DNA of 51,344 bases from Gemmatimonadota bacterium (lineage in GTDB: Bacteria > Gemmatimonadota > Gemmatimonadetes > Gemmatimonadales > Gemmatimonadaceae), in the NCBI GenBank assembly GCA_947463135.1, contig CANHTA010000006.1:1-51344 (forward strand), read 5' to 3'. The notes below the pieces were generated by a model. That model made no database searches and had not been told where the DNA came from. It saw only the letters and a program-made list of their open reading frames with translations. The translations under genes were made by a program, and so were the position numbers. Shown one piece after another: positions 18,432-35,101 of the stretch. Each line of letters starts with the position of its first letter. The stretch's first letter is position 1.

Positions 18432-18869
18432 AAACGGCCAACGGCTTAGGAGGCAGGGAGGAGGGGGTCAGGGAGGAGGGGGCAGGTCGCTCAGGCGGCT
18501 TGCCTCCTTTGCGTTTGCGGCGGCCTTTTCGTGGGCCGCCTTGCGGACGAAATGCTGCCTCAGACCGTAGGTCATTCGGCGGACTTGGCGAGTCTCCTCG
18601 ATGGCGTCGCCGATGCCGGGGAGTTTGAGGCCGAGCTTGTCGGCAAGGACCAAATGGCTTTCCACCTCGAATGCCGAGGAGATCGCGTAGCTGAGGAATC
18701 GCGCGCACTCAGCGGCCGTAGGCTGGCCGACGCCCTCGGCGATGTTCGTCGGAATGGAGCCGACCGCGCGACGAAGCTGCGATGCGAGCCCAGGCACCTC
18801 GCCGCGACGCCCCCCCTGCCCCCTCCTCCCTGCCCCCCTCCCCCCTGCCTCCTAAGCCGTTGGCAGTTT
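18432..18869. repeat. Inverted-repeat element, copy A, enclosing a four-helix-bundle gene remnant
   Basis: The two arms, 18432-18486 and about 18811-18869, are near-identical inverted repeats. Reading inwards, both start AAAC(G/T)GCCAACGGCTTAGG and continue as purine-rich GGCAGGGAGGAGGG blocks. The interior of about 320 bases encodes the four-helix-bundle fragment on the minus strand. The element lies in the gap between the convergent mlaD and TonB receptor genes. I see no clear target-site duplication. Two shorter relatives occur at 22339 and 34977. It resembles a small transposable or REP-like element, but no known family can be named from sequence alone. Confidence 0.8.
18468..18797 (-). 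pseudogene. Four-helix-bundle protein (S23/IVS family), N-terminally truncated
   Basis: 109 residues starting at a GTG. The sequence SQLRRAVGSIPTNIAEGVGQ and the following AECARFLSYAISSAFEVESH match the four-helix-bundle family found as 23S rRNA intervening-sequence proteins and related to the Avd protein of diversity-generating retroelements. Full members have an extra N-terminal helix of about 35-40 residues (with a pattern like VWQ-A-L) before SQLRRA. Here that part is missing and the frame runs directly into the repeat arm. At the other end, the last residues LPPPP and the stop are encoded by the opposite repeat arm. I therefore read it as a decayed cargo gene. A functional short variant cannot be excluded. 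Confidence 0.7.
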
Positions 18870-22338: not shown

Positions 22339-22454
22339 AACTGCCAACGGCTGAGGAGGCAGGGAGGAGGTACAAAGGGAGGAGGGGGCAGTGGGGACCG
22401 CGCGCGGCCCCTGCCTCCTCCTCCCTGACACCCTCCTTCAAGGGCTTGGCAGTT
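22339..22454. repeat. Inverted-repeat element, copy B, without cargo
   Basis: A 116-base imperfect palindrome. The left arm (22339-22390) reads AACTGCCAACGGCTGAGG and then GGCAGGGAGGAGG blocks. The right arm (about 22409-22454) read in reverse starts AACTGCCAAGCCC and carries the same G-rich blocks. There is no room for a gene inside. Its right end merges with the TAA stop of the APC permease, so the element begins exactly where that coding region ends. Confidence 0.75.
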
Positions 22455-33698: not shown

Positions 33699-34993
33699 GC
33701 AGCGCGTCGCCCGCGCCATTCCCCCCGGAATCCGCGCCATCCCGCCGACGGGTGGCCATTACGGGGATCGGGTGCGTCACTCCGATCGGGATTGGTGTGG
33801 AGGCGCTGTGGCAGGGACTGCGCGCGGAGCGGTCTGCCGTGGTGGCCGCCACGCGATTCGATGCGTCGATCTACCGTTCGCAGTGTGCAGCGCAGATTGA
33901 CGGCTTCGATGCCACGCAGTGGATTGACGCCAAGCGCGTGAAACGCTTTGACCGCTTCAGCGAGTTTGCGGTGGTGAGCGCGCTCTTGGCGCTACGCGAC
34001 GGCAAGCTCGACGTGGCCAACGAAGACCGTGATCGGGTGGGCGCCATGATGGGCACCGCGCTGGGCGGCGTGGGCTACGCCGAAGCGCAGGCCGCACGCT
34101 TTCTGCACGGCGGTCTGCGCGAGGTTGACGCCACCTTGGCCTTGGCGGTGTTTGGCGGCTCGGCCAGCTGCAACATGGCTATCGAATTCGGTGTATCGGG
34201 GCCCAACTCCACCAACGCCATGAGCTGCGCATCAGGGGCGATGGCGATTGGGGAAGCGTTCCGTCAGATCCGCGATGGCTACGCCGATGTGATGTTAGCC
34301 GGCGGATCGGAAGCGCCACTGGCCACGCTCTGTTTCGGTGCCTTCGCGCTCATTCGCGCCATGTCCACGCGCAACGACGAACCGGCCCGCGCGTCACGGC
34401 CCTTCGACAAAGACCGCGACGGATTCGTGATGGGGGAGGGCGGCGCGGTGTTGCTGCTGGAGGAATGGTCGCACGCGGTGGCGCGCGGTGCGCGCATCTA
34501 CGCAGAGCTTGGCGGCTACGGCACCACCAACGACGCCCATCACATGACGGCGCCGCGCCCCGATGGCACGCAGGCGGCGCGGTGCATGCACAACGCGCTG
34601 CGCGATGCATCGGTGAGCGTGAACGAGGTGGAGTATATCAACGCCCACGGCAGCAGCACGCCGCTGAACGACCCCACCGAAACATTGGCCATCAAGCAGC
34701 TCTTCGGCGACCATGCGTACCGGGTGCCGGTATCCAGCACCAAGGGCTACTACGGTCACGCCCTCGGGGCATCGGGCGCCTTCGAAGCCGCCATCAGCGC
34801 GCTCACGATTGCGCGCGGCTGGATTCCGCCCACGCTGAATCTCGAAACCCCCGACGTGGGCTGCGATTTGGACTACGTGCCGCAGCACGGTCGGGAGCTG
34901 AGCCCGAAGGTGGTGCTGTCAAACAGCTTCGGGTTTGGCGGGATTAATGCGGCGTTGGTGCTGAAACAGGTTGATGAACTGCCAACCGCCTAG
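33695..34993 (+). CDS. Beta-ketoacyl synthase (FabF/KS-alpha type)
   Basis: 432 residues. All catalytic residues of a condensing enzyme are seen: Cys178 in [18 protein letters not shown], His318 in [12 protein letters not shown], Lys350 and His355 in [15 protein letters not shown]. The start [15 protein letters not shown] and end [17 protein letters not shown] are canonical. The active-site context SCASG differs from the TACATG common in housekeeping FabF, and there is no acyl carrier protein, ketoreductase or chain-length factor next to it. It is therefore more likely a specialised ketosynthase of this operon than the fatty-acid enzyme. The last four codons and the stop lie inside repeat copy C, so its natural C-terminus may have been altered. 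Confidence 0.9.
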
Positions 34994-35101
34994 GAAGCAG
35001 GACGGAGGGTGTCAGGGTGGAGGGTGCAGGGAAACGGCGCCGCTGTCCTGCTTCCTCCACCCTGAAGTCCTCCTCCCTGCCGCCTAAGCAGTTGGCAGTT
35101 T
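34977..35101. repeat. Inverted-repeat element, copy C, at the 3' end of the ketosynthase gene
   Basis: A 125-base imperfect palindrome. The left arm starts AACTGCCAACCGCCTAGG and carries GGAGGGTGTCAGGGTGGAGGG. The right arm read in reverse starts AACTGCCAACTGCTTAGG and ends in the same kind of blocks; a GGCGCC-containing centre separates them. The left end supplies the final codons and the TAG stop of the ketosynthase. It sits in the convergent gap with ppa, and may double as a bidirectional transcript end. Confidence 0.75.

Follow-up and report, generated by a model that had tools for sequence, protein, structure and literature searches.

Does a gene that lies between the arms of an inverted repeat travel as accidental cargo, or do gene and arms belong together? 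This question is raised by copy A, an inverted-repeat element at positions 18432-18869 of the window, by which we mean the whole stretch of 51,344 nucleotides of Gemmatimonadota DNA analyzed here. A preliminary description had placed an S23-type gene between the two arms of copy A, with the end and stop codon of the gene made by one arm. This was confirmed (Table 1).

Table 1. Copy A and the related hairpins of the window
Feature	Position	Strand	Remarks
Left arm of copy A	18432-18486	+	AAACGGCCAACGGCTTAGGAGGCAGGGAGGAGGGGGTCAGGGAGGAGGGGGCAGG, AGGnnGC/AGGnnGG units in heptad phase
5'-truncated S23/IVP four-helix-bundle gene	18468-18797	-	PF05635, TIGR02436; first helix deleted
Right arm of copy A	18815-18869	-	Reverse complement of left arm, 95%
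Copy B, short hairpin without gene	22339-22454		Copy A-type arms at 22339-22391 and 22408-22454
Copy C, short hairpin without gene	34977-35100		Copy A-type arms at 34977-35030 and 35047-35100

Copy A and its short relatives

The arms of copy A are 55 nt each and enclose S23 as the sole gene. The open reading frame begins with a GTG 18 nt away from the right arm and encodes 109 amino acids; its final 19 nt, stop included, are contained in the left arm. The protein matched PF05635 (23S_rRNA_IVP) with 60.3 bits (cut-off 33.8) over profile positions 30-103 and TIGR02436 ("four helix bundle protein") with 68.1 bits (cut-off 24). Protein genes are located on both sides, the element is not inside an rRNA gene, and an Rfam search of the window gave no match, rRNA included.

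The preliminary description further held that the first helix is lost and that copy A may be decayed. In a sister species (genome G305) the same site was found to carry a complete S23 orthologue (L145) between the same arms. The finding that would have refuted the preliminary proposal, namely that such arms never flank full-length homologues, was thus not obtained. The L145 protein covers profile positions 4-111 and is 94% identical to the copy A protein over the shared part. Since L145 contains helix 1 and has an arm-to-gene spacing of 87 nt compared to 8 nt in copy A, the window copy carries a deletion of approximately 150 nt. On this sequence comparison copy A is a recently inactivated, decayed member with a 5' deletion. 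The window genome also has a second, full-length S23 gene (L001, positions 1299-2010 of that locus, on contig C3). Its inverted, low-complexity arms differ in sequence from those of copy A (GGGCTGT and GGGTAGT-like), with 17 copies of the GGGCTGT unit in one array.

Copy B overlaps the stop codon of an open reading frame ending at 22453, and copy C is located after a gene end. The site of copy C is empty in several relatives and occupied by other hairpins in others; at three orthologous sites (L172, L173, and L178) the gene junction is filled by hairpins with GGGGTCAGAGTCAAAAA or GGTGATCAGTGAAAA units, which may represent other repeat families. In the window genome the arm motif gave 18 + 20 matches on the two strands compared to 2 + 2 for a reversed control pattern. 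The hairpins of the window genus consist of AACNGCTTAGGnnGCAGGnnGGAGGGTnTCAGGnnGGAGGnnGCAGG, a loop and the reverse complement, are about 110-135 bp long, and are dispersed and intergenic. Among 24 of them the AGG..G core was almost fixed, with variable nn positions and spacers, where the core belonged to the search pattern and up to 9 errors were allowed. Partner arms agreed at the inner nn positions no more than expected by chance. The idea that the arms of this family are constrained mainly by base pairing was therefore rejected, and the motif, rather than the pairing, seems to have been kept. The commonest arm variant across dispersed copies differs by species, being CTAGG in G306 and TTAGG in G304 and G305. 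Gene-less or deleted forms were also found at sites where a relative has the full element (L346, L378, and L363). The dispersed short hairpins of the window genome are best read as non-autonomous relatives of copy A.

Heptameric arms accompany S23 genes

We surveyed the flanks of 146 S23 genes, 78 of them named loci from about a dozen phyla and 68 from Gemmatimonadota, together with 1259 control ORFs of similar length. Flanks were scored by inverted local alignment (arms, score ≥16; strong arms, score ≥20) and for period-7 arrays. Arms and/or period-7 repeats were found at 137 of the 146 S23 loci compared to 53 of the 1259 controls. Strong arms flanked 103 S23 genes (48 of 78 named and 55 of 68 Gemmatimonadota loci) and none of the 1259 controls, so the inverted repeats of copy A are not due to chance. 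When arms were paired across loci, 8 of 1274 pairings reached a score of at least 20; control windows gave 0 of 396.

Repeat periods of S23 flanks were prominent only at a lag of 7 and at the harmonic of 14; a minority had a period of 8 and a few of 9 or 10. The heptamer unit varies between elements around a loose shared consensus, RGKNGTC, oriented inward. Units of 8 nt were seen at L054, L071, L084, and L140, of 9 nt at L136, and of 10 nt at L075 and L114, and a Bacteroidaceae pair of S23 elements has a common 10-nt unit; unit length may follow the S23 subfamily. Arms are usually 30-50 nt long, and those of L205, L210, and L218 were found to be far longer (inverted score 63-80).

Arms and protein were found to vary together. 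The two arms of an element co-vary at orthologous sites (rho 0.93). At these sites, arms are also more alike where the S23 proteins are more alike (rho 0.80; partial r 0.73 when flank identity is controlled for), and flank identity adds no information once S23 is given (-0.08). L041 and L052, with flanks that are 91% identical, have S23 proteins that are 65% identical and arms that differ, as though the entire cassette had been exchanged. The link was kept among non-orthologous loci, where it was reached in none of 500 permutations, and several pairs from different phyla (L081/L088, L110/L113, and L043/L068) combine similar S23 proteins with similar units. These pairs, the orthologous ones included, are not independent, and several loci come from metagenome assemblies. 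The dN/dS of S23 was 0.03-0.18 in divergent pairs, by which measure S23 is under purifying selection. Since nearly all S23 genes come with heptamer arms of their own, which co-vary with the protein, the notion of the gene as accidental cargo of one repeat family had to be corrected.

The co-variation also bears on the alternative that the hairpins are MITE- or REPIN-like and moved by an unrelated transposase, e.g., a Y1 HUH enzyme of the RAYT type, with S23 as a passenger. The dispersed intergenic hairpins of about 110-135 bp do look like REPINs or MITEs, and 7 of 16 array-rich genomes contained Y1_Tnp (PF01797). However, it was absent from the other nine, among them the window genome, G095, G140, and G212; arms would not track the sequence of a passenger, and one would not expect a passenger to be the enclosed gene in about a dozen phyla. 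We find this alternative improbable.

The preliminary description had proposed that short copies should correlate with S23 genes if full-length relatives mobilize them. Arrays were counted with an AGNNNTC triple-heptad pattern in whole genomes, 159 with and 139 without S23, and a positive correlation was found (Spearman 0.55 over 298 genomes). At least five arrays were present in 44 of the 159 genomes with S23 compared to 2 of the 139 without (Fisher p 1.9e-11); within the same families the numbers were 40 of 143 and 2 of 29. No array of this pattern was found in 66 of the 159 S23 genomes. Among the Gemmatimonadota, G048 (100% complete) has 438 triple-heptad matches and 10 S23 genes, while G290 (81% complete) has 55 arrays and S23 was not found. 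Both G290 and the array-free S23 genomes count against the reading of S23 as mobility factor given below. Random 20-kb stretches contained 1 array in 182 kb with S23 and 0 in 227 kb without, which is too sparse to compare density.

Insertion of gene and arms as a unit

Near-identical cyanobacterial plasmids with and without an element revealed insertions of about 430 bp in which gene and arms came together. One element is present in plasmid C of T. variabilis (L312), in a second strain with identical sequence and in Scytonema (L340), and absent in six relatives with flanks 97-98% identical. The empty site reads AAAAAGTAATTAACAAAT; the filled site has AAAAAGTAAT, arms and S23 gene, and GTAATTAACAAAT, with a target duplication of 4-5 bp (TAAT/GTAAT). 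Other plasmids (L313 and L355) carry a related element, at which TTCT(A) is duplicated compared to L350 and L352-L354. A third element, in L350, occupies a spacer that is a few nucleotides long, and its duplication is imperfect. Two of the three closely read junctions thus have target duplications of 4-5 bp; both belong to plasmid relatives of copies A-C. A joined-flank query for empty sites in Gemmatimonadota, covering approximately three sites, yielded no target duplication.

The empty plasmid sites contain no heptamers, and therefore the arms come with the element. The same element family was found at unrelated sites in different plasmids. In Nostoc edaphicum an S23 element separates nrdB from nrdA on a plasmid (L316, 2989-3357); Calothrix NIES-4105 (L344) does not have it. 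In Picosynechococcus PCC 7003 another separates cas10 from the Cmr3-family gene within a type III-B CRISPR operon (L348, 1989-2345), a junction that is without the element in PCC 7002 (L356). The junctions at these two sites are less clean than the others. A Riemerella plasmid carries a distant S23 (L351, 1080-1700; 35% identity) with heptamer-like inverted flanks, AAGGTTC and GAACCTT. No S23 was found among 50,697 phage records.

Arrays could instead be regulatory or terminator hairpins of the host, or slippage products, shaped in place around S23 as a regulated but immobile resident. Copies are located at the ends of genes and where genes converge, many S23 sites have long been inherited vertically, and heptameric repeats are over-represented in bacteria, for which polymerase slippage has been proposed (PMC4679880; PMC4692102). 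The clean filled and empty pairs, the target duplications, the lack of heptamers at empty sites and the occurrence of one family at unrelated plasmid sites all speak against shaping in place, which we consider very improbable. That gene and arms form one mobile unit of about 430-600 bp we regard as very probable. The preliminary interpretation is supported in this respect, as S23 elements do insert as units.

A possible role for S23 and relation to known systems

Taking gene, arms and insertions together, the S23/IVP gene with its own inverted heptamer arms is probably a small mobile element with S23 as its mobility factor. It is likely that S23 recognizes the heptads; that it is needed for movement we favor with somewhat less assurance. 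The crystal structures 2GSC and 2RLD of S23 relatives have five chains; 2GSC is XCC0516, the S23 of Xanthomonas campestris, which PMC4990558 describes as a toroidal homopentamer. The S23 pentamer would read the heptads repeated in tandem in its own arms, and the hairpins would require it, in cis or in trans, to be copied or inserted. Cutting and joining would be carried out either by a host enzyme or by S23 itself, in which no recognized catalytic motif was found. The mobilization of short copies by full-length relatives, as proposed in the preliminary description, is consistent with the correlation across genomes and with unit insertion; an active part of S23 in it is what we infer.

A retroelement, with an Avd-like S23 and reverse transcriptase supplied in trans, was also considered. 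S23 shares its fold with Avd of diversity-generating retroelements and has weak profile similarity to it; one S23 gave a sub-threshold Avd match of 20.8 bits (cut-off 80), while the Avd profile did not match the window protein. However, RVT_1 was found in only 2 of the 16 array-rich genomes and was absent from the remaining 14, including the window genome and the complete G048 with its 438 arrays, and no layout of a diversity-generating retroelement was seen. The reverse-transcriptase analogy was thus not supported as a requirement, and we hold a retroelement to be highly unlikely. As they were not found in 14 and 9 of the 16 array-rich genomes, respectively, reverse transcriptase and Y1 transposase seem not to be needed in the genome today.

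The S23 pentamer itself could conceivably be a strand-transfer or excision protein, i.e., a recombinase that has no relation to known transposases and reads its element in steps of 7 nt, although we think this unlikely. If it were true, the elements would be a source of bacterial heptameric repeats, and rRNA IVSs would be insertions of such elements into rRNA. If S23 reads heptads, it would offer a small, clean model for how tandem repeats are recognized by a ring protein, and the element would count as a mobile unit that has no recognized transposase. Three old puzzles, namely the function of S23, the origin of rRNA IVSs and the abundance of seven-nucleotide repeats in bacteria, come together here in one testable hypothesis.

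The 23S rRNA IVSs have the same anatomy as copy A, an S23 ORF within complementary arms. In Coxiella burnetii the IVS measures 428 nt and has inverted repeats at its ends, an S23 ORF and tandem GACAGAT heptamers whose number differs from strain to strain (PMC4990558). The same paper cites an old proposal that IVSs move through their ORF. IVSs are defined by their location in rRNA and their removal by RNase III, whereas the elements described here are found between protein genes in many phyla and have dispersed gene-less copies and arms that co-vary with the protein. The window element was not classed as an IVS because it is outside rRNA. The classical 23S rRNA IVSs have the appearance of members of this element class that were inserted into rRNA; the class is much wider in extent than the known rRNA IVSs.

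REPIN/RAYT systems likewise combine small dispersed inverted pairs with a gene that has these repeats on both sides, but RAYTs are Y1 HUH transposases, which were not found in the window genome and eight other array-rich genomes, while S23 is an unrelated four-helix bundle. The plasmid relatives of copy A share inverted ends and a short target duplication, of 4-5 bp in their case, with insertion sequences and MITEs. A mostly open-access literature search found no earlier link between S23 and heptamer arms, and a report elsewhere is possible. Seven-nucleotide units are also a feature of heptameric repeats known from Xanthomonas (GGGAATC), Nostoc, and Beggiatoaceae, which may belong to the same class; Xanthomonas campestris is the source of the S23 protein XCC0516. 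Heptamer repeats are described for Xanthomonas (PMC4692102) and Beggiatoaceae (PMC4679880) with S23 or four-helix proteins unmentioned, and the Xanthomonas heptamers form convergent inverted pairs, in 70 and 75 cases (PMC4692102).
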